NCBI GenBank assembly: GCA_016214075.1
Contig: JACRPI010000032.1
Span: 1-43,420 of the forward strand
Direction: 5' to 3'
Source: Candidatus Woesearchaeota archaeon
GTDB lineage: Archaea > Nanobdellota > Nanobdellia > Woesearchaeales > DSVV01
Length of the DNA stretch: 43,420 bases
Shown here: one piece after another, positions 4,498-33,899 of the stretch
How positions within the stretch are numbered: the stretch's first letter is position 1
Layout: every line of letters begins with the position of its first letter
The notes under the pieces: model-generated
What the model saw: the letters and a program-made list of their open reading frames with translations, nothing else
Databases searched by the model: none
What the model was told of the DNA's origin: nothing
Program-made: the position numbers and the translations under genes

Positions 4498-4500
4498 TGT

Positions 4501-9348: not shown

Positions 9349-9370
9349 CTTATAAAGATCTGCTTGTTTG

Positions 9371-9379: not shown

Positions 9380-9431
9380 GTTTTTAAGAAAAAGCCTCCA
9401 TCCAAAAATTCATTGATAGTTTCTTTTTGAG

Positions 9432-9556: not shown

Positions 9557-9580
9557 AAAAGCAGACTCTTTCCTCACAAC

Positions 9581-9589
9581 ATATTTAAA
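9581..9589 (+). promoter_or_regulatory. TATA box of rnhB
   Basis: ATATTTAAA is centred 27 bp before the ATG at 9612, consistent with a leaderless transcript. Confidence 0.6.
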
Positions 9590-9611
9590 CAAAATAGCAC
9601 AACAAGAAATA

Positions 9612-10271: not shown

Positions 10272-10272
10272 G

Positions 10273-10920: not shown

Positions 10921-10930
10921 GCTCTAAATT

Positions 10931-12344: not shown

Positions 12345-12346
12345 TT

Positions 12347-13908: not shown

Positions 13909-13925
13909 TTTTCCACCGTTGTTTC

Positions 13926-14639: not shown

Positions 14640-14670
14640 CCCTTATTCTCTCTAATAATCTTTATTCTTC

Positions 14671-14679
14671 TTATAAAAC
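14671..14679 (-). promoter_or_regulatory. TATA box of the 14639-10273 operon
   Basis: Minus-strand GTTTTATAA is centred about 36 bp before the ATG, allowing a leader of roughly 10 nt. No comparable promoter was seen inside the operon, where genes overlap or nearly touch. Confidence 0.5.
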
Positions 14680-14711
14680 TTATGCATGTTCTACATGTAC
14701 TTCTGCGTGCA

Positions 14712-16663: not shown

Positions 16664-19600
16664 TTACGCTTTGGTCTCTTCCGTTGTCTCTGCTATTTCT
16701 ACTTCTTTTATCTCGACAGGCATATCAGCAGAACCAACAATTTCTTGCTGCACAAACACTTTATTCGCAGAGCTACAAGACCAATCCACTTTCCAAACAT
16801 AAATAGTTTCTCCTGTCACTGTATGCTGCTCTTCAAACAAATCAAAACACTCGAGGTTGTGGCCTTTGTAAAAAAATAATTTTGTGAACATGCTTTCCAG
16901 CAGTTGAGAATCCATGAAAAAGCCAGTAAAGCTTGCTCCTGAAGGAATTATCGCCGCGCTGTACGACGATCTGCCATCTGATGAAATGAGCACATCACTT
17001 TGGTTACTGAAATCAGTTGTATTAAACGACCCATCTGGCGCAATATACAGCAATTTTTGCGGATGCTTGTACCCTTCGCTTGTCAGCACGCCTGCATCAC
17101 CTGTGGTAAAATTAATCATAACTCCTGAACCGCAGAGGAGCATTTCGTTTTCCTGCCAGCAATCCTGTGGCATGGTGACATACGAAGGCCATCCTGTAAT
17201 CCAGTTATTTGGGTCACTTGTTATTGCCTCATTGTATAATTTTTCCGCTTCTTCCACAGAAAGACCAATATCATTTTCGATGATTGTTAGCGCTTCTTCT
17301 TTTTCATACGCATTCGCGACATTCACGATGTACGCTCTTTCGAAATTCCATGACCCGAAGTGCGCCCAAACTCCTGATTTTCCCACCATATCCTGACTTG
17401 TAATAAAATAATCTTCTGGAGGAGTACAATGCGTGTACTGAAGCACTGCGCTTGCTTCTTCTTCACTGAATCCATTTTCTGTTAATGCTGTTCTTGCATC
17501 TTCTTCTGTCATCAAAATGATTTCTTTTGTGAGCGTGATTGTCTTGTACGAATTATTTATTTTTTTGTAGATAGTATCGTACGCGCTATTTCCGCCACAA
17601 TCTAACATGCGCAGAATTCCAACTGCTTCACTTTCGCTGTCTGTGAGCAACGCGCGCCCAATCCAGTGCGCCTGCGGCGTATCCTGTGAACCTCCATCAA
17701 ATGTCACCGCGCGATCCGCAATCGCTTTAAACCAATGACCAAAATCCCACCATGAATTGACTATCGCGTCTGGCGCTGCCTCTTGATTAATTTTTTCCAA
17801 GGCATTATACCATCCATCATTGATTAAAGGCATTTGCTGGCTTCCCAACGTATAGCCTACTCCAATCGGTAAGAAAAGGAGAATCGCGACTCCCGCAATA
17901 AGGACAACCTTTACCCATTTTACCTGCAATTTTATGAGATCCGCAATAACGTCTGCCCAAATTCGATAGACAAAAGAAACACCAAATCCACACGCGACCG
18001 CAAACGCTGGCACGAGAATCATCACGAAACGAACCCCCTGCGTACTTGCGTAGATAGTTCCGACAAACCAAATGAACAAAAGAACAGCATATTTCATGTC
18101 CGCTTTCTGCTCTTCAAGGAGCGCATAGATGACTCCAATAAGCAATGGAATACCTACTAAAAAGAAAAACAAAAATAATGTGTCCTGAAGCTGCGGAATC
18201 CATTTAATGATCGCGGCATACCACATACTTACCCCGACAAAATAGATTGTTGTAAAGGAAACCTTTCTGTAAATCAAATAAAACAATGGCGCGAATAATA
18301 AGAGGGTGAAGAAAAATGGAGAGATTATTTTTCCACTCAACAGCGTCAGTAGAATCACCCACGCAAGTCCCGCCGCAAGCATCCATTCCTGCTCTTTTTC
18401 AATAATCGCACGCTCAAAAAGCGCATACCCTACTCCTAAAAACGCAAGTAGAAGAAGAATTCCCATTCCAAAGCTCACTGTGCCAATTATTTCTGACAAA
18501 GAAGCTGGATTGAATTCCGCAACTGTTGTTAAAACGTTTGGCCAGATTTTGATAACTCCCACTTCTTTGATCGTCGAAAACGCAAGTGGTTCCTTGACCG
18601 CATTGACAAATACTTTAAAGCTGGAAAAGAACGTGACGAAAAGACCACAGCATACAATGAAGATGACCAACGCAAGAAGCAATTTTTCTTCTTCACTTTC
18701 AAACTGCTTTTTCTTTATTGTTTCCAAACCTGTTTTTACTGCTGCTCCTAACACAAACAACGGCGCAAGAATAATCGCGCCAATGATCCAAGTGATCTTC
18801 TGATTGCGCTCTTTTCCCGCGATGTATTTTTTGACAAACACATACCACAAAGAAACAAAACAAACACCAAGAAGGAAATCATAAATGTACCACCAGCCGC
18901 CCCACGTGTAGCTGAAGATTCCTACAATCATTCCCCCCAATGCGCCGAAACCCAGCGCTTTTTTCCAATTTTGCGCTTCAAGCGCTTCGATAAAAATCCA
19001 CATAATTAATAGAGGGAAGAGAACGTTATAGCCATCTGTATCAGAAAATCCCGCAATTGTTCTTCCAATAAACGCTGGATGCACCGCAACGATTGTCGCC
19101 GCGACAAACGCGCCCATATTTCCCGCAACCTTTTTCACCATGAAAAATGCAGGGATAACCGCCAACGCAGCAAGAAGCACTGGCAAGAAATACACCACAG
19201 TCATCAATCGAATGTTTGGCGCAAACAAAGAAATTATTTTGTAAAGATATGCTTCCACCATCACGTGAAAATGCGGGAGTTTACTTGTTTCTCCACCGAG
19301 TACTTCACGCGGTGTCCCTGCCATCTGATGCGTGTCATAATATCTTCCATTGAGTTCGATGTCGCCTTCATACCCATGTTCTAGATAATTTTCTGTTAAT
19401 CTATAGAAATACCATGGATCAATTTCTCCAAGATACGTTAATCCATACTCGTCCTGAAATTGTGCTTTAATTTGCTGCGCATTTTGTTCTACGAGGTCTT
19501 CTATCGCGATTTGCTGCCCCAGATAATCAATTGTTCCTGCCGCATAGATCGCATCGAGCTGCTCTTGCGCAAGCTTCTGCTTGTTTTCCTCAGGGAGATT

Positions 19601-19831
19601 CGGATACTGCGCATTGACCTGATCTAGAATTGATTGTTGGATTGATGAACGAATATTTGCTTCTGCTGCATTGTCAATTGATGGAAGGTAAACTGGTTGG
19701 ATTCGAATATGGATGCTTAAGAAAATGGGAATCAGTATCAGGAAGAGAAGATAATTTGCTTTGCACCACGTCCATATGTTTAGCGCAATTTTTCCAAAGT
19801 CAATAGAAATGTCTTCTTTTTCTTCTCCCAC
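16664..19831 (-). CDS. aglB: Dolichyl-phosphooligosaccharide-protein glycosyltransferase (AglB/STT3)
   Basis: The 1,055-residue protein has the hallmarks of the archaeal oligosaccharyltransferase. EIDPWYFYR (catalytic Asp138) is in the first outside loop, SDTDGYN (263-269) is the second acidic motif, and VAEFNP (Glu439) is in the position of the SVSE/TIxE loop. The acceptor-recognition motif appears as WWDFG (694-698) instead of the usual WWDYG. The membrane region has about 13 helices (to about 660) followed by a large outside domain. It transfers glycans from a lipid carrier to Asn in N-x-S/T sequons outside the membrane. An unusually long first loop (about 50-135) is rich in Gln, Asn and Glu. 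The start is a GTG preceded by GGTGG; an ATG four bases upstream is out of frame. Confidence 0.95.
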   Translation of the reverse strand: MGEEKEDISIDFGKIALNIWTWCKANYLLFLILIPIFLSIHIRIQPVYLPSIDNAAEANIRSSIQQSILDQVNAQYPNLPEENKQKLAQEQLDAIYAAGTIDYLGQQIAIEDLVEQNAQQIKAQFQDEYGLTYLGEIDPWYFYRLTENYLEHGYEGDIELNGRYYDTHQMAGTPREVLGGETSKLPHFHVMVEAYLYKIISLFAPNIRLMTVVYFLPVLLAALAVIPAFFMVKKVAGNMGAFVAATIVAVHPAFIGRTIAGFSDTDGYNVLFPLLIMWIFIEALEAQNWKKALGFGALGGMIVGIFSYTWGGWWYIYDFLLGVCFVSLWYVFVKKYIAGKERNQKITWIIGAIILAPLFVLGAAVKTGLETIKKKQFESEEEKLLLALVIFIVCCGLFVTFFSSFKVFVNAVKEPLAFSTIKEVGVIKIWPNVLTTVAEFNPASLSEIIGTVSFGMGILLLLAFLGVGYALFERAIIEKEQEWMLAAGLAWVILLTLLSGKIISPFFFTLLLFAPLFYLIYRKVSFTTIYFVGVSMWYAAIIKWIPQLQDTLFLFFFLVGIPLLIGVIYALLEEQKADMKYAVLLFIWFVGTIYASTQGVRFVMILVPAFAVACGFGVSFVYRIWADVIADLIKLQVKWVKVVLIAGVAILLFLPIGVGYTLGSQQMPLINDGWYNALEKINQEAAPDAIVNSWWDFGHWFKAIADRAVTFDGGSQDTPQAHWIGRALLTDSESEAVGILRMLDCGGNSAYDTIYKKINNSYKTITLTKEIILMTEEDARTALTENGFSEEEASAVLQYTHCTPPEDYFITSQDMVGKSGVWAHFGSWNFERAYIVNVANAYEKEEALTIIENDIGLSVEEAEKLYNEAITSDPNNWITGWPSYVTMPQDCWQENEMLLCGSGVMINFTTGDAGVLTSEGYKHPQKLLYIAPDGSFNTTDFSNQSDVLISSDGRSSYSAAIIPSGASFTGFFMDSQLLESMFTKLFFYKGHNLECFDLFEEQHTVTGETIYVWKVDWSCSSANKVFVQQEIVGSADMPVEIKEVEIAETTEETKA

Positions 19832-20065: not shown

Positions 20066-21187
20066 TTATAACGCTTTCCACATCTTTTTCATGTGCTTCA
20101 TCCCAAAGAAAATAAATTGCGGATTTTCTCTAACAAGATGAAATATTAATTGTAAAAGGTTATCCCGCGTATACTTTTCCATCACCTCGTTCGCACTGGA
20201 ATTGTTCAGCATTTTGACGAGTTGGTTGTATTCCTCATCTGAAAATTGGTCAAGGAACTTTCGCAGGAAGAGATGGAGCCACAATTTTTCTCTTTTGAGT
20301 TCTTTGTTGAAATCTTTGTTGTTGATGACGCAGTCTGTAAGTATTTTCGCTGCTTCAAGATGTGGAATAATTCCGCCTCCTGTTGTGGATTTTATGATTG
20401 TCGCTGCGTCACCAATAAGATAGATGTTGTTTTTTTGGACATTGATGTTTGGATTGTAACAGGGAATTAATCCTCCTTGTCTGTCCGTAATGTCCAAGTC
20501 TGTGTATCCTAATTTTTCCATCGCATGTTTGAAATAGATGTTTGGTGTTTCTTTTGTCGCAAGACCAATTCTTGCGTGCTGCGTATCTTCTGGGACAACC
20601 CAGAGGAAAAATTCTGGACAGATATTTCCAAGATAGACGTGATAGGTGTTTGGTTCAAAGGTTCCTTTCACTGTTGCCTGGCTCCCATAATACATCGGCG
20701 TTGGATGCCGCTTGAGCATTTCTTCGTTGATGATTTTAGAGACTTTGCTGTTTGGTCCATCCGCGCCGATAAGAATGTCAATTTTAACTTTCTTTTCTGC
20801 TTCTTTATTTTTCACGATGATTTCTTGTGTTTCATCATTGTAACTGATGAACTTTGTTCCTTTTTCTATCGTCGCTCCTGCCACGATCGCTTTCTTCAGA
20901 ATGTAGTTGTCAAACTTATGACGGCAAACGATAATATCATCATTTTTTGTTTCAAACACAGTGCCATCTGGCGCAAACACTTTGACTTTCCGCATCCTGT
21001 TGACTATGTACTCATCGCTGAGTTCCACGTGGTTTTTGAGATCATTGGTGAGAATTCCTGTACACTGAATAGGAAGCCCTGGCTCAAGATGTTCTTCGTA
21101 GATCGTGACGTTGTAGTTCGCTTTTGCAAGAAGATACGCTGTGTAGTTTCCCGCAGGTCCTGCACCAATGATCGCGACTGATTTCAT
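20066..21187 (-). CDS. Geranylgeranyl-reductase-family FAD-dependent oxidoreductase
   Basis: The 373-residue flavoprotein starts with the FAD-binding motif IIGAGPAGNYTAYLL, then has GLPIQCTGIL (residues 37-46), GADGPNS (141-147) and LIGDAATIIKSTTGGGI (257-273). Together these are the layout of the archaeal geranylgeranyl reductase family. Members saturate double bonds of the isoprenoid chains of archaeal membrane lipids or of polyprenyl carriers. Length is slightly below the usual 390-450. The alternative is a related FAD monooxygenase-like enzyme. Near aglB it could also act on the lipid carrier of N-glycosylation, but this is only position-based. A TATA-like box 26 bp upstream fits a leaderless start. 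Confidence 0.85.
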   Translation of the reverse strand: MKSVAIIGAGPAGNYTAYLLAKANYNVTIYEEHLEPGLPIQCTGILTNDLKNHVELSDEYIVNRMRKVKVFAPDGTVFETKNDDIIVCRHKFDNYILKKAIVAGATIEKGTKFISYNDETQEIIVKNKEAEKKVKIDILIGADGPNSKVSKIINEEMLKRHPTPMYYGSQATVKGTFEPNTYHVYLGNICPEFFLWVVPEDTQHARIGLATKETPNIYFKHAMEKLGYTDLDITDRQGGLIPCYNPNINVQKNNIYLIGDAATIIKSTTGGGIIPHLEAAKILTDCVINNKDFNKELKREKLWLHLFLRKFLDQFSDEEYNQLVKMLNNSSANEVMEKYTRDNLLQLIFHLVRENPQFIFFGMKHMKKMWKAL

Positions 21188-21208
21188 TCTTTATGGGTTG
21201 AACGGAGC

Positions 21209-21217
21209 GCTTTTAAT
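21209..21217 (-). promoter_or_regulatory. TATA-like box of the reductase gene
   Basis: Minus-strand ATTAAAAG is centred 26 bp before the ATG at 21187. Confidence 0.45.
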
Positions 21218-21335
21218 GATTGTTGTGGATTGTTGCTTTTTTACCCTTTACTTTTGCCTTTTTGTTTTTGAAGAGTAAGATTAAGTTTGTGCGTCTTCTT
21301 TTGTGGAATCACTTAATAGTAGTTAATTGCAAAAG

Positions 21336-21346
21336 ATTTATAAATA
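21336..21346 (+). promoter_or_regulatory. TATA box of the first TPR gene
   Basis: ATTTATAAATA is centred 26 bp before the ATG at 21367, fitting a leaderless transcript. Confidence 0.65.
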
Positions 21347-21366
21347 AAGCAGGGGTTCTTTGAGGT

Positions 21367-22707
21367 ATGGCCCAAGCAAGTACTACAGAACAAGACTTTT
21401 TTGGTAATGAACCATCGTTAGATAGTTCTCTCCAAGCTGTTGAAGCAGAAATCGAACCAGAAACCTATTCAGAATTTTATGACTTGGTTACAGAACGATT
21501 ATTTAAAACATCAGCAGAAGAAGGGATTGGATTTCTTGGCAAGTATATTGAACGACGAGGATCTTTTTGGGGTCTTGGAAGTGTAGGAACTTCTCTTAGA
21601 AAACATAGTTACCTCCAAGAAGACATCGCAAAATCACATCCTAATGATCCTGATCGAATAGAAGAAGCACTTGTGCAACTTCGCGATACGAAACGAGAAA
21701 ATGGTCGATTAACGCTTGATGACGTTGTCGCGACAAGTTATCTTCTCACTGATGAATTTGACAGACGCGCGACATTTTTGTTGGCGTATGAACTTGATTA
21801 TCTTGAAGCACGAGAGCTCGGTGTCTCTGTCTCTTCGAAAGGAAAAACCGGGACTACCCAACGAGCTCCGACAAAAACAGAAGGAGAAGCATATGTCGCA
21901 GATATCCTTCAATGGATGGACTACGCAACTTCAAAGAGGATGCCTTTCAGAGAACTCATACGAGGAATCCATTTCTTTCTTATTAACAGTTTAGAACTTT
22001 ATGCGACTGCTGTTCATGATATTAAACAAAAAAATTATACTGTTGCTCAAATAAAACTCACTGGCCTTCGCGCTGCTGCTGACAAAGGACTCGCGAACAT
22101 AGAAGGACCAATTATTTATCAGCTTGCGCAAATTGCACTCAAAACAAAAAATGATGCACTCGCTGAAGAAAGATTGAGAGAATGTGTGATGATGCCTTCA
22201 ACAGCATTTCCCACACAGTTTGGAATACATATTGAAGATGCATATCAGGCACTTTTAGAACTCTACCAAAAAAGAAAAAATATTGATGCTGCACACGAAA
22301 TATTGTCTCATGCAAAACGATACAACGCAGTAACACAAGAACACTATGTCTCTGTTGCACGACTCTGTTATAAGCTATATCGCGGACAGGATGTCATTGC
22401 TCTTATCAATGAAGGCATCAACAGATTTTCGGAACATGACAGATTACGAGCATACAAACAAGATGTAGTTAATGATTGGTTTGAATTAGGTGGTAAAGCA
22501 GAAAAAGATAAAGATTACTCTGATGCTCGCGCATATTACAGACGAATCATTGAATTTGAACCAACACATACGCAAGCGTATTTACGAATTGCACAAACAT
22601 ATGAAGCACAGGGCAGAAAACTTGAAGCACGAATGCATTACCAGAAAACACTCGCCTTAGATAAGAGAGTTACTGAAGCACAACAAGGGCTTAAACGTGT
22701 TCAATAG
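21367..22707 (+). CDS. TPR protein with shared N-terminal helical block (TPR1)
   Basis: The 446-residue, probably cytosolic protein has no signal peptide or membrane helix. Residues about 35-150 form a helical block with the pattern LTLDDVV...DRR...YELDYL that recurs in the next gene and in the 931-residue membrane protein. Several degenerate TPR helices follow (about 200-350). The last 84 residues (363-446) hold a strong TPR module: VVNDWFELG, DYSDARAYYRRIIEFEP, then AYLRIAQTYEAQGRKLEA. That module is repeated at the C-terminus of the next two proteins and, more loosely, inside the GT4 fusion. It likely acts as an adaptor. I do not recognise a named family. Confidence 0.78.
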   Translation: MAQASTTEQDFFGNEPSLDSSLQAVEAEIEPETYSEFYDLVTERLFKTSAEEGIGFLGKYIERRGSFWGLGSVGTSLRKHSYLQEDIAKSHPNDPDRIEEALVQLRDTKRENGRLTLDDVVATSYLLTDEFDRRATFLLAYELDYLEARELGVSVSSKGKTGTTQRAPTKTEGEAYVADILQWMDYATSKRMPFRELIRGIHFFLINSLELYATAVHDIKQKNYTVAQIKLTGLRAAADKGLANIEGPIIYQLAQIALKTKNDALAEERLRECVMMPSTAFPTQFGIHIEDAYQALLELYQKRKNIDAAHEILSHAKRYNAVTQEHYVSVARLCYKLYRGQDVIALINEGINRFSEHDRLRAYKQDVVNDWFELGGKAEKDKDYSDARAYYRRIIEFEPTHTQAYLRIAQTYEAQGRKLEARMHYQKTLALDKRVTEAQQGLKRVQ

Positions 22708-22797
22708 AAAAAACATCAACATTCTTTTATGGATCTATTTCTTAACCTAATCGACCATCACAACTTAATCTTCAAGTCGTAAAGCATACCGCATAAT

Positions 22798-22807
22798 CTT
22801 TATAAAA
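22798..22807 (+). promoter_or_regulatory. TATA box of the second TPR gene
   Basis: CTTTATAAAA is centred 26 bp before the ATG at 22829. Confidence 0.65.
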
Positions 22808-22828
22808 CGATTCTCGTTTCTCTCTTTC

Positions 22829-24736
22829 ATGATGGAACATTCTTCTGGTGGGGCTCCGTATGATCTTCTTCTCCAAACACTGTCTCGGCGTTTGCTAAAA
22901 CCCACTATTTCCCAAAAAGAGGGACTTGACGCACTTGCCTCTTACATTACGGGCACAGGATGGATAACTGAAAAACCTCTCTGGGCAACACTCCTCTACT
23001 GGCGGACAAGACAAGAAGAACGCTCTGCTCTGAACAGTTGTCTTGAAGAATTGTATTCCAAAAAACGAGAACTGAAGAATGACTCTCTTTCTCTTGACGC
23101 AGTTGTTGCTGTCGCGTACACCCAAACAAACGAGGTTGATCGACAAGCGCTGCTCGTTCTTGGTCATGAATTTGGTTTTTATACAATCACAAAAGAATCT
23201 AACTCTGCATATTTCGTTGATGATGATTCCAAGCAAAGTATTGTTGCTCTTGTAACAAATTTGGAAGCCGCAAAGAAGGGAGGAATTACAACGGACGCAG
23301 TCATGGCTTATCTTCTTCCTCAACGCACTGTTTCCAACGCCAGAGAAGAAACTTTGGATATTGGAGATACGTGCGGATATGACTCTGATATTACTGGAAC
23401 TTTTGAATTTGATGATGATCAAGAATTGGATAATTTCGCTACAGAAGAGCTTGACCCCTTAAGCCCAACTGTTCTTATTCCTCTTTATACGATGGGAATT
23501 ACTGCTGTCCTTGCAAACGATCGTGAAACAATTACCCAAATAGGAAAAAATAATATGATCCAACTTCGAGACGCACAATATAAAAAACACATCGCTTGCG
23601 CACTTCGCGCAGCGTACAGTTTCCAGAATAATGTTATTCCACAAGCAATACGATATTATGAAGAAAGCATTGCTTTAACGCCAGAACCGGAAACACACGA
23701 ACCCCTTTACGCAGCCTCAATTACGGCACTTTCTGGATTATATTGTCGCTCTGTTGCATACACTGAAAGATTTGCAACGCTTTACCCGCTCGCGAAGGCA
23801 GTGGCGATCCCACTTGATGAACAGACTATTTGTGAGAAAGTTAGACATTTCGCGGAGATGACAACGAAGGCGTATAGTACACAAAAAAGCGACACTTCTC
23901 TTCGTCAATTAGACAAACTACTTCCTCTTACTGAACTTCCTTCTGTCTTTGAAATAGTAACCACGGCATATACTTCAATGATGCGCCATGCGCTTGATGA
24001 CAAAAATATTGATCACGCAAGACATTGTCATGACAAAATAGCAGCACTTTCCCAAAAAGTTCCTTTTGAAGACGAACTAAGAGACGGTATTGAAGAAAAA
24101 GTTCTTGATGCCATTGTTTTATTTTATGAATTTGCAGCATTACAATATGACGTAGGAGCTGTTGAAGAAGCGGCAAAAGCACTTGACAACTGTGAACGTG
24201 TTTTAAAGACTGGTGGCGCTGGCGCTCTTCACTTACTCACTGCAAAAATTCGACTTGCTGAAGGAAACAACGATGCTGCACTCGCATCTTTAGAAGCAGC
24301 TGTTGCTTCTGATTTTAGTGATCCACGATACAAAGTAACAAAAGAAGAAGTATATGTACTTCTTGCACGACAGTATTACTTAAGAAAGAACTACAATAAA
24401 CTAAGAGATTTATTTGAAGACGGTTTTGAAAAACTTCCTTCACATCAGAATTTAATAGAATATAAACTAGATGTTGTTAATGATTGGTTTGAATTGGGAC
24501 ATAAAGCAGAAAGAAATAAGGATTATTCTGACGCACGCATGTATTATCGACGAATCATTGAATTTGAACCAATTAATGCAAGAGCCCACTTACGAATTGC
24601 CTTAACTTATGAAACACAAGGACGTAAAATAGATGCACAAACATACTACCAAAGGACACTCGTTCTGGAGGCTCAATCTTTGGAAGCGCAACAGGGGCTT
24701 CTTCGATCGATAAAGGAAGTTATTACTCCACAGTGA
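22829..24736 (+). CDS. TPR protein, paralogue of the preceding gene (TPR2)
   Basis: The 635-residue protein repeats the layout of TPR1. The N-terminal helical block ends LSLDAVV...DRQ...HEFGFY (residues 87-118), with the same 27-residue spacing as in TPR1. An acidic linker follows (about 165-200, rich in Asp/Glu), then a middle region of degenerate TPR-like helices, and finally the C-terminal module (545-635) with VVNDWFELG and DYSDARMYYRRIIEFEP. The two C-terminal modules differ at few positions, so the genes are duplicates that have diverged in the middle. It is probably cytosolic and a scaffold. Its TATA box and ATG fit a leaderless mRNA. Confidence 0.78.
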   Translation: MMEHSSGGAPYDLLLQTLSRRLLKPTISQKEGLDALASYITGTGWITEKPLWATLLYWRTRQEERSALNSCLEELYSKKRELKNDSLSLDAVVAVAYTQTNEVDRQALLVLGHEFGFYTITKESNSAYFVDDDSKQSIVALVTNLEAAKKGGITTDAVMAYLLPQRTVSNAREETLDIGDTCGYDSDITGTFEFDDDQELDNFATEELDPLSPTVLIPLYTMGITAVLANDRETITQIGKNNMIQLRDAQYKKHIACALRAAYSFQNNVIPQAIRYYEESIALTPEPETHEPLYAASITALSGLYCRSVAYTERFATLYPLAKAVAIPLDEQTICEKVRHFAEMTTKAYSTQKSDTSLRQLDKLLPLTELPSVFEIVTTAYTSMMRHALDDKNIDHARHCHDKIAALSQKVPFEDELRDGIEEKVLDAIVLFYEFAALQYDVGAVEEAAKALDNCERVLKTGGAGALHLLTAKIRLAEGNNDAALASLEAAVASDFSDPRYKVTKEEVYVLLARQYYLRKNYNKLRDLFEDGFEKLPSHQNLIEYKLDVVNDWFELGHKAERNKDYSDARMYYRRIIEFEPINARAHLRIALTYETQGRKIDAQTYYQRTLVLEAQSLEAQQGLLRSIKEVITPQ

Positions 24737-24761
24737 ATACAAATAGAAACTTTTATAAATA
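24733..24761 (+). promoter_or_regulatory. Promoter of the PP2C gene, near-identical to the PKD-gene promoter
   Basis: These 29 bases, ending in TTTATAAATA, match 33741-33769 at 27 positions. The match covers the upstream GTGAATACA and ATAGAAAC strings as well as the TATA box. The block overlaps the stop codon of the preceding gene. The TATA centre is 26 bp before the ATG at 24782. Confidence 0.65.
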
Positions 24762-24781
24762 AGCTCCTTTTTTACCCCAAT

Positions 24782-26623
24782 ATGGATAGCTATGCAACAC
24801 AATATTTCAAAAGAACGCAAGATGGTTTTGACAGTTCTGAAAATGATGCATACTCCCTTTTTCTAACAGAAGATATGATGCTTTCTGTTGCTGGCTTTTC
24901 TTACCTTGGAAGAAGAAGACCACTTAATGAAGATAATTATATCCTTCAAGATGGAACTCTGGTTGTTGCGGATGGCGCTGGGGGTCACAATTCCGGAGAA
25001 ATCGCAAGCCATCTTGTCTGCGATGTTTTTGAGCGAGAGAACGATCCTACTTCTGTGCCAATACAACATAAAGAATTAAGCGACACTATTCGCGAGGCAC
25101 ATACTTATGTAATTAAAGAGGCTGCAAAAAGACCGAAAGAGTTAGGAAAAGAAAGAGAAGGAGAAATGTGTTCTACTGTTGCTGCTCTTCGCTTTCTAGG
25201 GAATAAAGTTTCTCGCGCGTACGTCGGTGATTCTCGCATTTATCGCTTACGAAATAACAGATTAAAACAACTGAGCGAAGATGACAGTGTTGCTTGGGAA
25301 AGATATCGAAAAGGAGAAATTACAAGAGAGAATGTTCGAACAGATAAAAATAGACATTTTATTACTTCTGCAATTGGATTTAGTGACAGTTCTCTTTCTC
25401 ATCTTCACGATTCTTCAGATGATGTCCAGCTTGGAGATGTTTATCTTCTTTGCACAGACGGTCTTTGGGATGAACTTCCTGATCGGGAAATTGGACGACT
25501 CATAAAACAAGGATACGTTGACCACCCTGATGATGATCTTACTGTCGCAAAAATGCTTGTTACTGCTGCAAACAGCGCAGGGGGGCGAGATAATATTACC
25601 GCTGTTCTTGCACGAGCGAAAGGAATTCCTATTGAAATTCTTGTTGAACGAGGCATTGGAGCAATAGAAGAAGACGATACAACTCTTCTTTTGGATCTCT
25701 TTAGCAAGCATAGAGACAGATTGCTCTCTGCACATGGAAGCAAAGCTCGCTATGTTCTTGCAGAATATACACAAAGAACCGGACTTTCGCTTACTGCACG
25801 AGATTTTTATTTAGAAGCAATCGAACAAGCATCTCCTCAAGAACGCAAAGAATCTTATTTTAAAAAAACAGTTGATACACTCCTTTGGCTTTATTCTTCT
25901 CTTTATATTCAGGAAACTGGTGCATCAAATGGAAGAGAACAAATATTCTTCAGAAAAGTTCTGGAACTTCGAGGAAAGGCAGAAGGGTATAAGGAACGAA
26001 TTGATGCAACACTTTGCGAACGTGTTGAGCAATTTGGTGATTTTGAAAATATTACAGAACTTGACAATCTGCGCCTAGGCTCTATAGATGCTCACGTTCC
26101 TGCTCTTCGAGAAAGTATTGCTCATGGTTATCTACAAATTGCTGAGAAAGCACTCGCTAGAAAAGACTATGCTAATGCACAAATGTTACTTGAAAAAATG
26201 CACCTGGTTAATACTGAAACTCCTTTTATGCAAACAGTTACTAAAAGACAGGGAACTGCTTACGTTGGTCTTGCGAGAGTTTACTATGTAACACGCCAAT
26301 TTGAAGCACTTCATACATTGTTTAGCGACGAGCATAAAGAAGTACAAGAGCTCATGAGTTATAAGAAGGATGTTATAAACGATTGGTATGAACTTGGTCG
26401 CAAAGCAGAGAGGGAAGGAGATTACTCTGATGCACGTGCCTATTATAGAAGAATTATCGACTTTGAGCCATCACATGTTAGAGCACACTTTCATATTGGG
26501 ACTGCATACGAAGCACAGTTACGACATGACCAAGCAAAAACTGCTTACAAAAGAACTCTTACATTAGCACCAACTTTTACTGAAGCACGAGAAGGATTAA
26601 CAAGAGTTAAAACGAGGAACTGA
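24782..26623 (+). CDS. PP2C-family Ser/Thr protein phosphatase with C-terminal TPR module
   Basis: Residues about 33-280 are a PP2C/Stp1-type phosphatase. Metal-binding acids are present in RRRPLNEDN (Asp51), VADGAGGH (Asp64), LLCTDGLWDEL (Asp226) and GGRDNITAV (Asp270), with YVGDSRIYRL in between. So the enzyme looks complete and Mn/Mg-dependent. A middle helical region (about 300-525) leads to a TPR module (527-613; DYSDARAYYRRIIDFEP) shared with the two preceding proteins. PP2C enzymes are uncommon in archaea. It probably removes phosphate from Ser/Thr of partners bound through the TPR tail. The next gene starts 5 bp later, so the two are co-transcribed. Confidence 0.88.
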   Translation: MDSYATQYFKRTQDGFDSSENDAYSLFLTEDMMLSVAGFSYLGRRRPLNEDNYILQDGTLVVADGAGGHNSGEIASHLVCDVFERENDPTSVPIQHKELSDTIREAHTYVIKEAAKRPKELGKEREGEMCSTVAALRFLGNKVSRAYVGDSRIYRLRNNRLKQLSEDDSVAWERYRKGEITRENVRTDKNRHFITSAIGFSDSSLSHLHDSSDDVQLGDVYLLCTDGLWDELPDREIGRLIKQGYVDHPDDDLTVAKMLVTAANSAGGRDNITAVLARAKGIPIEILVERGIGAIEEDDTTLLLDLFSKHRDRLLSAHGSKARYVLAEYTQRTGLSLTARDFYLEAIEQASPQERKESYFKKTVDTLLWLYSSLYIQETGASNGREQIFFRKVLELRGKAEGYKERIDATLCERVEQFGDFENITELDNLRLGSIDAHVPALRESIAHGYLQIAEKALARKDYANAQMLLEKMHLVNTETPFMQTVTKRQGTAYVGLARVYYVTRQFEALHTLFSDEHKEVQELMSYKKDVINDWYELGRKAEREGDYSDARAYYRRIIDFEPSHVRAHFHIGTAYEAQLRHDQAKTAYKRTLTLAPTFTEAREGLTRVKTRN

Positions 26624-26628
26624 ATAAA

Positions 26629-29301
26629 ATGACCCCAATTGATGCAGTAACCGAAGTTTCTCGTGATCTTTTCCCCAACAGACGAGTTCTTTTAATCGCT
26701 CATGAGTTTGAAACAGGAGGAGGCATTGCAACATATGTTCGTCATACAAAAAAAGCTCTTCGAAGTTTAGACCTTATGGTGGATGTACTTGTTAGAGCAC
26801 ATGGCTCATCATCTGAAGCAAGCTTATTTACTGATGATGTTGCTACAAGCGTTGACATTAATAATCTTCCGCAGCTATTAAAAAGACGTCCTTATGATCT
26901 TATTCATTTTAACAGTATTTCTACAACAACTATGTATGGTTTTCCACTTCGTGGTCTTGGTATTTTGAACACGCCACTTGTTTATACGGCTCACTCTAGC
27001 ATCCAACAAGAGATGGATCGCTTAGGAGTAGGTGGTGCTGAATATCAACGAGCACTTGAAGCACAACACCAATTACTTGATATTGCTGATAGAATTATTG
27101 TGCCGAGTACAGCTTTGGGGGGCGCACTTGGAGGACAGAGTAAAATACGAGTTGTTCCTAATCCTGTTGCTCTCCCTACTTTTGAGGCAAAAAATGTTGA
27201 CGCTATTGCCAATTGGATTCGAAAACATTATGCTCCTAATGATGAAGACCTCCTTATTTATTCAGGTAGGCTTGGACAAGAGAAAGGAGTAACAACTCTT
27301 GCTGCAGCATATAATCATCTTAAGCGACAGAGGACAAATTTGAGGTTGTTATATGTCGGTGCAGGACCTGCAACTCCTACTGTGTACCAAATTCTTGGAG
27401 CAGACTGTGATGGCTTTATTAAAGATGGCTCTGGAAGAAAATATCCGCCAGTTACTGGTTGGCGACAAGGAGAAGAGCTCTTTGCATATTATGCTGCTGC
27501 AGATGCTATTATAATCCCAAGCAAACTTGAATCGTTTGGGCTCAGTGCTGCTGAGGCACTTCTTATGAAAAAGCCTTTGATTGTTAGTGACATTGATGGC
27601 CCACATGAATATTTTGTAGAACCTGGTTTTGCTTATGGAATCTCGAATCCTAATGATGTGAGCGCAATTATCCAAGCAACTAACCGCTGTCTTGCTGAGA
27701 AAGGAACTTCCTCTCAACGTGCTATGATTGATCGTGCTGTTGCGCACCTTACTTCTGAACTCAATTTAGGAAGTTTCGGGAAGAGAGTACTTCGAACATA
27801 TGCGGAGTCTATAGGAAACACCACTCGAAGAAGACATTATTATCATGCTGCTGCTGCATATCACCAACGAAGACTTGAAGAGTTGCTCACCGAAGAGCCC
27901 GATAATGGAGCTATCGCTTATGCACTTGCAGAGATGTATGCCTCTCATGGAGAGACCTCGTCTGCTCAACAGTTATTAGAACGAGCAATGACCTGTACAT
28001 TTACCGCTTCATATGGTGTGGAAAAACAACAAGCATATGTTGCACTTGCTGCACTTTATTATAAAAAAAGAGAGTATCATTTACTTCCCCCTCTTTTCAA
28101 AGAAGGCTCTGTACTCCTTGAACATGATAAAGTAGATGCGTATAAGAAAGCAGTCGTTGATGATTGGTATGAATTTGGAATCAAAGCACGAGAAGCAAGA
28201 GACTTAGTTCTTTCACAATATTACTTTAATCTAATCTTGGAAACTGACCCTAACCATGGAAATGCGCATCACCGCATTGCGCAAACAATCAAAGAGCTGG
28301 GTGGAGAAGACGCACGCATGCGTGAACACTACGACTATGCTCTTGCACTTCGTGCAGAAATGTTTCCAGAAGAATTTATGACTGGCTTTGCATCTGAAGC
28401 AACAAGAGGTAGCAGCACCAGAACATATCATAATGAAATTACCTTATATCGATTTAACAGACCGAGAATTATCTACGCAACTCCTAAAGAAAGAAGAGCA
28501 CTCTCTGGCTTTGTTGTTAAAAAAGTAATGGAAGAAGGAGACTTACGAACAATAACCCTCCAACGCGCAAAAACTGAATTTTCTACTCTTGAACTACTAG
28601 CAACAAGTCCGCAGTTTCAAGACCACTATAGAGTACCGCTTCCCCTCGCTTATGATCCTACTTCTGGTATCATTGTTATGGAACTTGTTCAAGGAAGAAG
28701 TGTCCCTTCTATTGTTGCACAAAACCCCACAAAATTTGTTGAGTACATGGAAAGAATTGCATCTTTTGCAGCTGAATTACATGAAATAAGAATACATGAC
28801 CGAGCAGATGCTCCTTTAACAACAAATGTTCAATATAGTTTATATCTAAACATGATTAGAGAAGATAATACTAAATCGGCTGACCCCGCATATAGAAGGA
28901 TTAAAGAATATCTTGAGTGTGGAGCGTCTGTACCAACTGGAAGAACACAACGTTTTATCCATGGTGACCAGAGCATTGCTGTTTTTTATGATACTGGGGC
29001 AGAACTTTACTGTATTGATTTTAACAACGCTGATTCTGGTTTGCCAAGTCAAGATGCAGCACTGCTTATTTCAAATGCATACACACATATGGCTGATGTT
29101 GTTCCCTTACCTCTCTTTAGGAATGGAGTAGAGCACTTCTTAGAACTGTATACCAAAAAAATGGGCTCTGATGAAAAAGCTGCTTTTTCACGTCAGCTCC
29201 CATTTTTCCTTGCAGGCGCGGAATACTCAAAAGTAAGCGACCTCGGCCTTGGTCGTGTAGATTATAATATTCGAGAAATTTATGGCATCACTTTAAAGTA
29301 G
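26629..29301 (+). CDS. GT4 glycosyltransferase - TPR - kinase-like (APH-type) fusion
   Basis: The 890-residue protein has three parts. Residues 18-390 are a GT-B glycosyltransferase of family 4, with GGGIATYV at the start, YSGRLGQEKG (211-220) and the E-x7-E motif ESFGLSAAE (301-309). Residues about 405-580 are TPR-like; WYEFGIKA and LILETDP correspond to the module of the three upstream genes. Residues about 600-890 resemble an aminoglycoside-phosphotransferase/choline-kinase-type fold: VVKKV (Lys631/632), VMELVQG hinge, FIHGDQSIAV (776-785) and CIDFNN (795-800). The catalytic-loop Asn of HGDxxxxN is Val, so kinase activity is doubtful. It probably glycosylates a protein or lipid under control of the phosphatase next door. 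Confidence 0.8.
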   Translation: MTPIDAVTEVSRDLFPNRRVLLIAHEFETGGGIATYVRHTKKALRSLDLMVDVLVRAHGSSSEASLFTDDVATSVDINNLPQLLKRRPYDLIHFNSISTTTMYGFPLRGLGILNTPLVYTAHSSIQQEMDRLGVGGAEYQRALEAQHQLLDIADRIIVPSTALGGALGGQSKIRVVPNPVALPTFEAKNVDAIANWIRKHYAPNDEDLLIYSGRLGQEKGVTTLAAAYNHLKRQRTNLRLLYVGAGPATPTVYQILGADCDGFIKDGSGRKYPPVTGWRQGEELFAYYAAADAIIIPSKLESFGLSAAEALLMKKPLIVSDIDGPHEYFVEPGFAYGISNPNDVSAIIQATNRCLAEKGTSSQRAMIDRAVAHLTSELNLGSFGKRVLRTYAESIGNTTRRRHYYHAAAAYHQRRLEELLTEEPDNGAIAYALAEMYASHGETSSAQQLLERAMTCTFTASYGVEKQQAYVALAALYYKKREYHLLPPLFKEGSVLLEHDKVDAYKKAVVDDWYEFGIKAREARDLVLSQYYFNLILETDPNHGNAHHRIAQTIKELGGEDARMREHYDYALALRAEMFPEEFMTGFASEATRGSSTRTYHNEITLYRFNRPRIIYATPKERRALSGFVVKKVMEEGDLRTITLQRAKTEFSTLELLATSPQFQDHYRVPLPLAYDPTSGIIVMELVQGRSVPSIVAQNPTKFVEYMERIASFAAELHEIRIHDRADAPLTTNVQYSLYLNMIREDNTKSADPAYRRIKEYLECGASVPTGRTQRFIHGDQSIAVFYDTGAELYCIDFNNADSGLPSQDAALLISNAYTHMADVVPLPLFRNGVEHFLELYTKKMGSDEKAAFSRQLPFFLAGAEYSKVSDLGLGRVDYNIREIYGITLK

Positions 29302-29310
29302 TGATTTGAC

Positions 29311-29326
29311 CGAAACATTTAAATAT
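29311..29326 (+). promoter_or_regulatory. Strong BRE/TATA promoter of the 931-residue protein gene
   Basis: CGAAACATTTAAATAT is identical to 37257-37272, before the S-layer-like gene. It predicts a leader of about 45-50 nt; AGGTGA (29381-29386) is the ribosome-binding site before the ATG at 29394. Confidence 0.65.
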
Positions 29327-29393
29327 AACTTAGTTTTCACTACCAAGTAATTACAAGAATAAAAGTTATAGTAACAACTAAGGTGAACAAAAC

Positions 29394-32189
29394 ATGGCAT
29401 TTACACGAGCAGGAAACCGAGAAGCATTTTTAGAAAAATCTGGATCTATAGATGTTGAAGGATTACAACGTGCAATTGAAACTGGTGACCTTCTTCGACG
29501 CTATGATTTAGACACTGCTCAGAACATAACACGATATCACAGACAGACTCCCTCACTCGTCGGCGGCGCAAGTGTAGCACCAAATACTGCTGCAGATCCT
29601 ACCTTGGATCATCTTGCTGTAACTCCCTTTGATCCTGCAACAGCAACATCACCTGGTTATAACCTCGGGGCAATGATTGCACAATACCTCCCACTGAGAG
29701 ATTGCTTTTATCATCGTGATAAACAACGAGAAGTTGCAAAAGGACTTGATGATTTATACAAAGAATTACAGCGCGTGCAAAATGAAGTTGTTGCACCGCA
29801 CCCTACCAATCCAGGACTCCTTGTCACAACAAAACGAAAATTGACCGCAGCTGAAGCTGGGAAAATTATAGGTCAGCGACGCTATCATGTTTCCCGAGGA
29901 ACACTCGAGCAACTTTCTATTGAGTTAGGATATGTTGGTGAAGTAGATATTCAAACACCAGTCCCTACACCTTATGGTTATACAGCACCTGCTGCCCCAG
30001 CAACACCTGGAGCACCTACATACAGAACACCAACACCTGATGATGTCCGTGCAGCATATCAGCAGCCATTAAGCTGGAAACGCCCACAAACTTATTTACA
30101 AAGAATCCCTGAAGGAGTTCTTGCAGTTATTCGAGATGGTGCACTTGTCACAGGCGCAATTGCTGGTTCAGGACTCGCACTTGGTGCAGTTGGCGCATAT
30201 GCCGCAGCAAAAGGCGGACAAATAGCAGCAGGGCTTATAGGTTCAGGAATTTCTCATGTTGCACGACGTAGCGCATCTGACTATATTACATCGGAAGACG
30301 GTCTTCAAAATTTTGCACAGATGACCGGAAAACTCAGTGGTCTCGCAGCATACAGCGCAACAGCTTCCTTAGCAACTGCAACACTCGCAGTAGGATGGGT
30401 TACAGGAACATTAGCAGGAAGTGCAATTACCCGTTATATTGCAAACAGAAAAAGACAAAATGCTCGCGATAAACAGCGACAACTTGAAGATGTTCTGCAA
30501 ACTGGCGGCATAGACCCTACTTTAGCAACACAAATTCAGAATGATATTCGTTCTGCTGAGAAGTATGAAGCAGCTTCTGCAACGTTTGATATTGCATCGC
30601 TCCTTGGAGTAGTAGGAGGTGTTTTATCCAATGGTGTAGGTATGGTTTCATCAACAAATGATACTGAAGCACCATCCATCGACAAAATAGAATATTCCAC
30701 AAAAACTGATCTCTGCAAAGGAGACAAAGTAGAATTCAGTTTCACAGCAGCGGACAATAAAGATGTTGAAAAAGTTGTCGCTGAATTATACACTGCTGGC
30801 GACGCGCAAGACGCATTACAAGCAAAACTTTTAGGAGTTCCAAGTTCTGTTACAGCATTACAAGATGCAACTGTCCATCAAGATGGAATTACTGATATTA
30901 ATGTTTTCGGAAAAGATGTTGTTGAAGGAAATGGATCATTCACTATTAATGACTCTGGAGACTACAAAGTTTTATTGACCGCAACTGACGCAGCTGGAAA
31001 CAGCACCTCACAGCTTGTTGAACACACCTACACCATAGGAAATTGTGAAAGCACAGTTGATCCTGACGAGCCCCCTGTTTGTCCTGTTGATCCTGATGAA
31101 CCAAAAACACCAAGCGAACTCGAAGACTGTGTTAAAGAACGCTTCAGCTATGGTAAAAATATCAGCAAAGGCGTTGAACTCCGCGAAGTCTATGACTATC
31201 ACACCACACCTTTGAAACCTGAAGCAGGACACGAACAAGGATTAACTCTTGATCATTGGAAAGGCGGAAGCGTTTCATTGAATGGTGTGTATGATGAACA
31301 TACACCATGCGATTTCAACGTCGACAACACTGTTGTCATGCTTGAACATTACACTGACGCAAAAGCACTCGATTATCGAGTCCTTGTTGATGTTGACGCA
31401 TCTGGCCACTTCGAAATTCCAAAAGAATTCGCAGCATACAACGGTGATGACATCCAAGTCACTTGGGCAGAAGTAACCCACTGCGAAGATGGCAAACTTG
31501 GTCTTGAAGACTTAGCAAGCTATACGCACGGAAACCATGTTGTTATTCCAAAAGAAGCAGTGTTTGAAGGATCTGTTCCAACACACGTCGCACCACATTA
31601 TGTTGATTGCGATGGATCAGCTGATGCAACACCTGCACCAAAACATACTGACGTTCCAAAAGACGATTGCGGACCATGCAAAACAGCATGCGACAAGGAA
31701 TATTATTTACCTGTCGGCGTTGTAGATACAAAAGCAGGCCCATGCCCTGACGGCGCACCTGTTATGACAAGCAGTGGATTTGTTCCAGCAGGAACACTTG
31801 ATACAGTCGTCAATACATTTGGTTATATGCCAAGCGATGTTTCAGGAACACCTGTAGACGCAGTTCCTGGAAGTGTTGACGCAACACTCAATCCATTTGG
31901 ATACACTCCTGACGCAGCAGCGCCTCTTAGCGCTCCAGGAGGAACACTTGACGCAACACCAAATCCTTTTGACGGCGTTGCTCCAGCAGTGCCTGCACCA
32001 ACAGGAGCTCCTAGCGGAACACTCAGTGATCCAGTAGATCCATTTGATGTTGACGCAGGATCTGCTCCAGCAGATCCATTAGTGTACAATCTTGGTCATT
32101 ATTACCAAGAAACATATTACATCGATGACGAAGTACTTCGCGCATTCGAGAGACAACAACAAGCAGCATTAGAATTACGACTAGTATAG
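29394..32189 (+). CDS. Multi-pass membrane protein with probable extracellular Ig-like domain and proline-rich repeats
   Basis: The 931-residue protein has no classical signal peptide. Residues 98-182 are a helical block whose LTAAEAG...ELGY pattern keeps the 27-residue spacing of TPR1 and TPR2 and looks like a helix-turn-helix. A Pro-rich linker follows (185-230). Then come Gly/Ala-rich hydrophobic stretches (about 240-290, 312-350, 395-420), probably membrane helices. An Ig/cadherin-like domain (425-555; EFSFTAADNKDVEKV and VLLTATDAAGN) and a Cys-rich part follow. Near the C-terminus about four copies of a G-T/S-L/V-D-x-x-x-N-P-F-x-Y-x-P repeat occur (about 800-900). I do not recognise the family. 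It probably links a cytosolic face to the cell surface. Confidence 0.7.
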   Translation: MAFTRAGNREAFLEKSGSIDVEGLQRAIETGDLLRRYDLDTAQNITRYHRQTPSLVGGASVAPNTAADPTLDHLAVTPFDPATATSPGYNLGAMIAQYLPLRDCFYHRDKQREVAKGLDDLYKELQRVQNEVVAPHPTNPGLLVTTKRKLTAAEAGKIIGQRRYHVSRGTLEQLSIELGYVGEVDIQTPVPTPYGYTAPAAPATPGAPTYRTPTPDDVRAAYQQPLSWKRPQTYLQRIPEGVLAVIRDGALVTGAIAGSGLALGAVGAYAAAKGGQIAAGLIGSGISHVARRSASDYITSEDGLQNFAQMTGKLSGLAAYSATASLATATLAVGWVTGTLAGSAITRYIANRKRQNARDKQRQLEDVLQTGGIDPTLATQIQNDIRSAEKYEAASATFDIASLLGVVGGVLSNGVGMVSSTNDTEAPSIDKIEYSTKTDLCKGDKVEFSFTAADNKDVEKVVAELYTAGDAQDALQAKLLGVPSSVTALQDATVHQDGITDINVFGKDVVEGNGSFTINDSGDYKVLLTATDAAGNSTSQLVEHTYTIGNCESTVDPDEPPVCPVDPDEPKTPSELEDCVKERFSYGKNISKGVELREVYDYHTTPLKPEAGHEQGLTLDHWKGGSVSLNGVYDEHTPCDFNVDNTVVMLEHYTDAKALDYRVLVDVDASGHFEIPKEFAAYNGDDIQVTWAEVTHCEDGKLGLEDLASYTHGNHVVIPKEAVFEGSVPTHVAPHYVDCDGSADATPAPKHTDVPKDDCGPCKTACDKEYYLPVGVVDTKAGPCPDGAPVMTSSGFVPAGTLDTVVNTFGYMPSDVSGTPVDAVPGSVDATLNPFGYTPDAAAPLSAPGGTLDATPNPFDGVAPAVPAPTGAPSGTLSDPVDPFDVDAGSAPADPLVYNLGHYYQETYYIDDEVLRAFERQQQAALELRLV

Positions 32190-32203
32190 TGAGGTAAACA
32201 ACA

Positions 32204-33586
32204 ATGACATACAAAGCAACAACATATACGGTAGCAGCACTTGCAACAGCGATTGGATCATATTCTCCAACTGCAGATGCAACAACAGCACGAAAAGAAC
32301 GACCAATGGCTTATGAATTCCCAGGAGCACCTGCTGGACTTGAAAAAATCACTGTTTCTGCTGGCGTTAATTTAATTCCAAATCAGACAGATGGTTCAGT
32401 TGTTGTTCGTGTTGGCAGTGATGAACTTCCTCACCGAGCAGATGTCAGCGTTAAAAGCGTCGCGACAGGAAAAGAATTACCTGTTTGCGGCTATACAGTA
32501 CAGTACGTTGTTTCACCAGCGACTGAAGCAAGTCAAATGGATCCACGCGATGATCTTATGATTAAACAATATAGAGCAGCATTCCAAAAACCAAAACCAT
32601 TGAATGGCGTTGAAATTGATTATAGAATGGAAGAAAAAGATTTTGACCTTCTTGCAAGTCTTCCTGGCGATGGAAAATATATTCTTTACACACGAGGAAC
32701 AGTCAGTGTTCCAGTCGCTGGCACAGATTGTACACAAACATTGAAGATCCCAGGATTTTCCGAAGGACCATCTTATGATGTCTTCACTGTTGTTGGCACA
32801 AAAGGAACGCCATTTGTTTATCCTTCAGCAGAAATTGAAGCATGGACAAACAGCGATCTTGAATTTACTGAAGGAGGCATGTTTCATCCAAAATGGAAAC
32901 AAACACATGTAGTTAAAGGAATCATACAATATGAAGCAGGCAAACATGTCGGCGCAGATTTTGCAGTTCTTGGAACTGATGGCTTTGGAACAAACAAGAA
33001 AGATGATCCTTGCGCACCACGAGATCCATGCGCTCCAACAGATCCTTGCACAACAAACTGTAAACCAGTTCTTTACGAAGAACTCTTTATTGTTGGCGCA
33101 AACACTGTTCAGGAAGGAAGACGAACTATTGTTGTTCCTGACGAAACAAGCATGAACAGAGTGAAGATCCAACCCGGACAACATCTTGTTGCACGCTATG
33201 ACGCGGAGAATTATAACATTAGAACACATGAAGTGGATGCAGTAACAACAAGACGAACTGACGGAACTATTGCACTTGCTGAACGAAACATTGATGGAAT
33301 CATTGTTCCTGCTCACGGCATGGTTTTCGGCATTGAGCGTGTGCTCTACGGTATGTACGCTGTTGACAGAGATCATGATGGCGTTATCAGCCCTGGCGAA
33401 CAAGAATGCAGACCTATTGCAAAAGACGTTACCGTTGTTGAATTTGTTCCACGCGGTTATGAAGCAGAAGCATTCCTTGCAGGTCTTGGTCTTGGATTGA
33501 TTGGGGGATATTTAATTCCAAACCCAACACCAGTTCTTGAAGCAGGAGAAGTTGGCTTTGGCGCTGCAGGAGCACTTGTACACTAA
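32204..33586 (+). CDS. Surface protein with EF-hand-type calcium loop and C-terminal membrane anchor
   Basis: The 460-residue protein follows the preceding gene after 14 bp with its own GAGGT ribosome-binding site, so the two are co-transcribed. The N-terminus is weakly hydrophobic (about 7-25) and could be a signal. The body is mostly beta-type, with a DPCAPRDPCAPTDPC repeat (268-282) rich in Cys. Residues 388-399, DRDHDGVISPGE, are a complete EF-hand calcium-binding loop (dockerin-like). A Gly-rich hydrophobic stretch near 424-439 (AFLAGLGLGLIGGYLIP) may anchor it. Function unknown; calcium binding is a firm prediction from the loop. Confidence 0.7.
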   Translation: MTYKATTYTVAALATAIGSYSPTADATTARKERPMAYEFPGAPAGLEKITVSAGVNLIPNQTDGSVVVRVGSDELPHRADVSVKSVATGKELPVCGYTVQYVVSPATEASQMDPRDDLMIKQYRAAFQKPKPLNGVEIDYRMEEKDFDLLASLPGDGKYILYTRGTVSVPVAGTDCTQTLKIPGFSEGPSYDVFTVVGTKGTPFVYPSAEIEAWTNSDLEFTEGGMFHPKWKQTHVVKGIIQYEAGKHVGADFAVLGTDGFGTNKKDDPCAPRDPCAPTDPCTTNCKPVLYEELFIVGANTVQEGRRTIVVPDETSMNRVKIQPGQHLVARYDAENYNIRTHEVDAVTTRRTDGTIALAERNIDGIIVPAHGMVFGIERVLYGMYAVDRDHDGVISPGEQECRPIAKDVTVVEFVPRGYEAEAFLAGLGLGLIGGYLIPNPTPVLEAGEVGFGAAGALVH

Positions 33587-33645
33587 TTTTTTCTTTTCTC
33601 TTCTTTTTTTCTCATTTTCATTTTTCAAATTTTTACCAAAAAAAG
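33587..33645 (+). terminator. U-rich transcription terminator after the EF-hand gene
   Basis: The run after the stop codon consists largely of T in tracts of 3-7 bases. U-rich tracts alone end transcription in archaea. Confidence 0.6.
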
Positions 33646-33655
33646 ATTTCAAAAT

Positions 33656-33720
33656 AGGTTGAATTGTGTATGCGCAGTGTAAGGCGAATAAAGCACACTG
33701 GTGCGTGTATTACACAACCT
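33656..33720. repeat. Structured element F (65 bp), related to the element at 19980-20047
   Basis: Outer arms AGGTTG (33656-33661) and CAACCT (33715-33720) enclose AATTGTGTAT, TAAGG, GCGA and GGTGCGTGT in the same order as element E, plus a perfect inner stem CAGTGT/ACACTG. The outer arm bases differ from element E yet still pair. This fills part of the 313-bp gap 33587-33899; the remainder holds the terminator and the promoter and leader of the next gene. Confidence 0.55.
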
Positions 33721-33740
33721 CTCCAAGTTCTTACTTATAA

Positions 33741-33770
33741 GTGAATACATATAGAAACATTTATAAATAG
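33741..33770 (+). promoter_or_regulatory. Promoter and long leader of the PKD gene
   Basis: The TATA box (33760-33769) predicts a start near 33790 and so a leader of about 110 nt, long for an archaeon. The leader has hairpins TGTCA/TGACA (33797-33801/33810-33814) and GATCAT/ATGATC (33854-33859/33864-33869). AGGTGG (33887-33892) precedes the ATG at 33900. Confidence 0.6.
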
Positions 33771-33899
33771 ATATTCATTACCATACAGTAAATACATGTC
33801 ACGGAGTTATGACACTAAGTCTTTCCGACGACAGTAATGACAAGAAATGACACGATCATACAAATGATCCAAAATAACAACTAGAAAGGTGGAACGACA

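Follow-up and report, generated by a model that had tools for sequence, protein, structure and literature searches.

We analysed a stretch of 43,420 nucleotides (hereafter the window) from a Candidatus Woesearchaeota archaeon, comprising positions 1-43,420 of contig JACRPI010000032.1 (assembly GCA_016214075.1, forward strand). Four consecutive plus-strand genes at 21367-29301 each carry one copy of a module of about 155 residues, composed of four tetratricopeptide repeat (TPR) hairpins and a capping helix. We denote them T1 and T2 (the genes TPR1 and TPR2), PP (the phosphatase gene) and GT (the GT4 fusion gene). They are real, lineage-restricted paralogues with a common module; their components are already known, and the combination was seen in no other place searched.

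Table 1. The four-gene cluster and its surroundings (positions in the window)
Feature	Positions	Strand	Basis or remark
T1, 446 aa: N-terminal helical domain and TPRs	21367..22707	+	ORF (open reading frame), Pfam, AlphaFold model
TATA box TTTATAAA before T1, -30 to -23 from start codon	21337..21344	+	inferred leaderless promoter
N-terminal domain common to T1 and T2, copy in T1	21454..21816	+	T1-T2 alignment; no Pfam match
TPR module copy 1, T1 residues 290-446	22234..22704	+	alignments, profiles, model
TATA box TTTATAAA at -30 of T2	22799..22806	+	
T2, 635 aa: T1 paralogue with longer middle	22829..24736	+	
N-terminal domain common to T1 and T2, copy in T2	22841..23194	+	
TPR module copy 2, T2 residues 464-635	24218..24733	+	
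TATA box TTTATAAA at -30 of PP	24752..24759	+	
PP, 613 aa: PP2C phosphatase, linker, TPR module	24782..26623	+	
PP2C domain, PP residues 34-282	24881..25627	+	motifs NED, DGAGGH, TDG, RDN all present
TPR module copy 3, PP residues 446-613	26117..26620	+	
GT, 890 aa: GT4 glycosyltransferase, TPR module, APH-like kinase domain	26629..29301	+	
GT4 glycosyltransferase domains, GT residues 31-369	26719..27735	+	
TPR module copy 4, diverged, internal, GT residues 426-577	27904..28359	+	
APH-like kinase domain PF01636, GT residues 646-820	28564..29088	+	Pfam
GGR (geranylgeranyl-reductase)	20066-21187	-	upstream of cluster
AglB (oligosaccharyltransferase)	16664-19831	-	upstream, then glycan genes
PKD protein	33900		downstream
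PACE-CTERM S-layer-like protein	37340		downstream; NF033506 112.1 bits, cut-off 110
Membrane protein, VWA match below Pfam cut-off	39122		downstream

A TPR module common to four adjacent genes

All four segments lie where the original prediction had placed them. Their extent had been underestimated, however, since the common block opens about 75 residues earlier (at about residue 290 of T1, 464 of T2, 446 of PP and 426 of GT). The gapless match claimed for T1, T2 and PP is real: the T1-T2 alignment runs for 127 residues with no gap, and the three copies are ungapped from Y-K-x-D-V to the last helix. The GT copy has indeed the looser form ascribed to it (32-38% identity). Local alignments scored 346 (T1-T2), 307 (T2-PP) and 281 (T1-PP), and 204, 201 and 164 for the pairs with GT, while the top score in shuffled controls was 58-73 (200 shuffles per pair). 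At the DNA level, a repeat of 221 nt recurs at 22434, 24442 and 26341, and one of 48 nt is found in all four genes (22453, 24461, 26360 and 28141).

Such likeness could in principle reflect chance resemblance of generic consensus TPR repeats, as TPR3-4 of the module match ordinary and designed consensus TPRs. We split the module in halves, built profiles from three copies and searched for the omitted fourth against a background of 528 ORFs. With the C-terminal half, the omitted copy scored 123.7, 112.8, 96.7 and 37.7 bits (background 31-33 bits); with the N-terminal half, to which no consensus TPR corresponds, it scored 31.2, 49.7, 35.3 and 56.5 bits against a background of at most 7.4 bits. 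Because this non-consensus half is common to all four copies above background, the modules derive from one ancestral module, and the profiles show a shared descent beyond generic TPR likeness. Chance resemblance, ruled out by the leave-one-out profiles, has a practically negligible probability.

The distribution of the module argues against chance as well. We compared 352 genomes of the order (the source and 351 others, members of the genus and family included) and a phylum sample. In its own genome, the module profile detected the four copies at 233-250 bits and one weak TPR at 22.2 bits; in the other 351 genomes the full module is absent, and there only the TPR3-4 part gave matches, of about 35 bits or less. 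Mutual similarity of the four modules exceeds their similarity to the remaining TPR proteins of the genome or order, so the outcome that would have refuted the original prediction did not occur. A single-sequence phmmer search with the PP copy ranked two proteins with multiple TPRs higher than the GT copy, which has diverged; the split profiles resolve this case.

Further fusions of the module, for which the original prediction proposed a search, were found neither in the order nor in GTDB, and the phylum sample yielded nothing new. No match to the module was obtained in GTDB r220 contigs, viral contigs or plasmids, and no relatives of GT in the GTDB r220 contigs; the GTDB and viral scans were seeded with short peptide patterns, so distant relatives may escape them. 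Two assemblies of the same genus (82% and 89% complete) contain the module nowhere, and their contigs stop at or inside GGR. In literature on comparable archaeal clusters nothing closer was found. Plasmid or virus origin was rejected on the lack of matches in plasmids and viral contigs and on the ordinary GC content. Contamination was rejected too: AglB is 65% and GGR 79-80% identical to their counterparts in same-genus genomes, so the contig belongs to this lineage.

An AlphaFold model of T1, computed with all four sequences as input, predicts four hairpins and a capping helix; pLDDT exceeds 90 from about residue 289 to residue 446. The hairpins are modelled as stacked antiparallel helices in a superhelix, as expected of TPRs, and a long helix (residues 358-380) bears the signature Y-K-x-x-V-x-D-W-[FY]-E. 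A GT model from single sequence reached pLDDT 37.6 and was not used. Pfam TPR models match above their gathering scores, in TPR3-4 for T1, T2 and PP and in GT only as TPR_19 (residues 413-453). Solved structures align to the module profile almost exclusively from position ~80 onward, i.e. in the consensus part. TPR3-4 track consensus TPR proteins (CTPR) and general TPR adaptors closely, whereas TPR1-2 and the elongated Y-K-x-x-V-x-D-W helix are peculiar to these four genes. Across the four modules 26 columns are invariant, including T1 Y363, K364, V367 and D370, which lie outside the usual TPR consensus positions.

Duplication and transcription of the cluster

Outside the module, clear resemblance exists only between T1 and T2. 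Residues 38-145 of T1 and 11-117 of T2 align with a score of 91 (shuffle mean 38.2, maximum 56), and because both genes thus possess the same N-terminal helical domain of about 110 residues, their sequences identify them as whole-gene duplicates. Pfam gave no significant match to the domain, and the 351 further genomes of the order none. The notion of one module fused to different catalytic domains consequently holds for PP and GT but not for T1 and T2, which share this single non-catalytic domain.

Synonymous divergence (dS) between modules amounts to 1.0 for T1-T2 and ranges from 1.3 to saturated for the other pairs. In every pair nonsynonymous divergence (dN) is clearly lower than dS across the full length of the module, which shows protein-level constraint on the copies. 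The likeness of T1 and T2 peaks precisely in the C-terminal half of the module, as it would if recent gene conversion kept the 3' ends alike. In that half, however, dS ranges from 1.1 to saturation, and agreement at four-fold sites is about what chance gives (7 of 17 for T1-T2, chance 0.31-0.43). We therefore rejected recent conversion, raised as a possibility by the original prediction, as very improbable. For what had been described as module shuffling, the best reading is an old tandem duplication in which the N-terminal domain was replaced. This is the simplest history, T1 and T2 being the youngest or the most constrained pair; relatives that could order the duplication events were not found.

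The octamer TTTATAAA occurs seven times in the window (shuffle mean 1.84, no shuffle reaching seven), and three of these copies occupy precisely positions -30 to -23 relative to the T1, T2 and PP start codons. The archaeal TATA box is centred about 26-27 bases ahead of the transcription start. Given this usual spacing and the position of the octamer at -30, T1, T2 and PP are probably leaderless and transcribed separately, giving three probable units, T1, T2 and PP-GT. Intergenic gaps measure 121 (T1-T2), 45 (T2-PP) and 5 bases (PP-GT). GT begins 5 bases past PP with a GAGG ribosome site, and ribosome sites likewise precede the two genes after GT (29394 and 32204), so that PP-GT, perhaps together with these two, may form one unit. 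The single promoter and short gaps of one operon were not what we found; the claim that all four genes form one operon is probably wrong, and only PP-GT looks co-transcribed.

The phosphatase and the glycosyltransferase fusion

The PP2C domain of PP retains the Asp residues for two metals (NED, DG.GG, TDG, DN). PP matches Stp1/PppA-type phosphatases and aligns with solved PP2C phosphatases, and with its metal-binding motifs intact it is probably an active phosphatase. As its score with NF033484 (158.9 bits) is below the equivalog cut-off of 230, we call it PP2C-type and do not name it Stp1. Only 5 of 352 genomes of the order have a PP2C phosphatase (query P0003); the type is rare here, as it is in the source lineage, where protein kinases are common. 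Archaea account for 439 of 57,520 PF13672 proteins, and the domains depicted for PP2C proteins include TPR (PMC12088040). PP resembles bacterial PP2C-TPR fusions (PF13672, Stp1 or PppA type) in joining PP2C with intact metal motifs to TPRs. It differs from them in its archaeal host, where PP2C is uncommon, and in that its TPR is a module common to three neighbour genes.

Four Hanks-type kinase matches above the Pfam cut-off are present in the same genome, on contigs C25 and C27 away from the cluster, and a positional link of PP to these kinases was therefore rejected. Since the same query found no second PP2C in the genome, PP may serve as a general eraser for the Hanks-type kinases. Two other genomes (G238 and G015) have a protein kinase match within about 0.3 kb of their PP2C, unlike PP, which has no adjoining Hanks kinase gene. 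A known defence system was considered and rejected: PADLOC gave only the PP2C-containing candidate match PDC-M21C for PP and none for T1, T2 or GT.

Some of these kinase and phosphatase genes have features of their own. The C25 locus (L048, 613-3411) encodes a Hanks-type kinase of 660 residues that probably has a transmembrane helix and whose C-terminal part is helical and looks like TPRs; the adjoining gene reads, by eye, like a lytic transglycosylase, unusual in an archaeon. On C27 (L050, 1456-3392), two short kinase genes (329 and 315 residues) adjoin with a one-base overlap at 2445 beside a MutS-like gene, the second having an altered catalytic loop (HYDLKADN). A short contig of another genome (G301:C72, L020) carries a PP2C within an open frame exceeding 1000 residues; long low-complexity stretches flank the domain and a membrane helix is possible, another unusual architecture for an archaeal PP2C.

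GT is a GT4 enzyme by its PF00534 and PF13439 matches and its E-x7-E region (E-S-F-G-L-S-A-A-E, residues 301-309). The original prediction described the module as C-terminal, which is correct for T1, T2 and PP; in GT it is internal, because a PF01636 (APH) domain absent from that description follows it. The match is weak (32.0 bits, cut-off 23.2). The beta3 Lys, the Glu, HGD and IDF are readable, as in APH or Bud32-like small kinases, whereas the HGDxxxxN loop reads by eye H-G-D-Q-S-I-A-V, Val replacing Asn, and the domain is placed behind GT4-TPR. By sequence it has no match in the PDB. In coupling a TPR superhelix to a glycosyltransferase, GT resembles O-GlcNAc transferase and SPINDLY, to whose TPRs both Foldseek and sequence searches gave matches. 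The catalytic domain of those enzymes comes after the TPRs, whereas that of GT is GT4 (Glycos_transf_1/Glyco_transf_4) and precedes them, with APH after.

Possible role and genomic setting

Our preferred reading, a tentative one which we rate slightly below an even chance, is a shared-dock envelope assembly that arose by local duplication with replacement of N-terminal domains. Duplication would have put a four-hairpin TPR dock in four adjoining genes, their N-terminal parts being exchanged or lost, and would have produced two adaptor-like proteins (T1 and T2), a phosphatase with a C-terminal dock and a GT4/APH-like kinase fusion with a mid-protein dock. Through the shared module all four proteins might bind one partner or each other; the phosphatase, the enzyme that builds glycan and both adaptors would then act as a single assembly on the inner side of the cell envelope. 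Within it, PP2C could strip off phosphates added either by the APH domain or by the Hanks-type kinases encoded elsewhere in the genome, and in this way regulate a step, particular to the lineage, that concerns surface glycans or the S-layer. The envelope-glycan setting is suggested by the neighbour genes and the GT4 domain. In its fullest form (a lineage-specific, phospho-controlled envelope assembly on a private TPR dock, in which the PP2C eraser, the GT4-kinase fusion and two adaptors serve the same partner beside S-layer genes) we consider the proposal unlikely.

Several points weigh against the shared-dock assembly. A common partner or mutual binding is suggested by the presence of the dock in all four proteins, and TPR modules can stay homologous and still diverge to other partners, the GT copy being much looser. 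Separate promoters mean that joint expression is not required. Transmembrane prediction gave no helix in T1, PP or GT and one marginal segment in T2, so the envelope location is read solely from the neighbour genes. It is also doubtful whether the APH-like domain, which lacks the Asn of the loop, is an active kinase.

Two other explanations compete with it. Plain tandem duplication without a common job, each TPR copy binding its own partner and the genes being adjacent only since duplication is local, accords with the whole-gene duplication of T1 and T2, the three promoters and the divergence of the GT module. The low dN and the invariant columns outside the TPR consensus are contrary to it, and we regard it as rather unlikely, if quite conceivable. 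The module might instead mediate self-association, forming homo- or hetero-oligomers via the TPR superhelix in place of a third-party dock. Copies of one module in adjoining genes could pair, and the modelled long helix would be a natural packing surface, whereas the T1 model is of a single chain; this we hold to be improbable.

If the shared-dock reading is true, the cluster represents a compact natural case of scaffolding by duplication, in which unlike enzymes are tied by a copied dock, and it would connect Ser/Thr phosphorylation with the making of surface glycans or the S-layer in an uncultured lineage of archaea. To our knowledge, no enzyme scaffolding by copied docks has been described for archaea.

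Regardless of the dock reading, the cluster marks the slot between AglB/GGR and the S-layer gene as a variable site in the family. In two genomes of the same family (G004 and G008), the order AglB-GGR ... PKD-S-layer-VWA is kept and unrelated genes occupy the slot between GGR and PKD. They are PIN/VapB-like genes, named by eye, and two of 415 and 394 residues in G004 (L040, L046), and an HTH/nucleotidyltransferase-like gene, likewise named by eye, and two of 873 and 607 residues in G008 (L045). The slot (20066-33899 in the window) is thus variable within the family, each genome having its own gene set, and the cluster lies in a neighbourhood of envelope-glycoprotein genes.

On the minus strand, glycan genes (aminotransferase, epimerase, several GT2s, PMT-like) extend over 1566-16541 up to AglB and probably constitute the N-glycan pathway of the source archaeon. 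The two genes after GT, at 29394-32189 (931 residues) and 32204-33586 (460 residues), could be assigned to no family and are unmatched in the slot of G004 or G008; the former product shows a weak Ig-like match and may contain membrane segments. The gene pairs at the corresponding position of G004 and G008 could be analogues of this pair.

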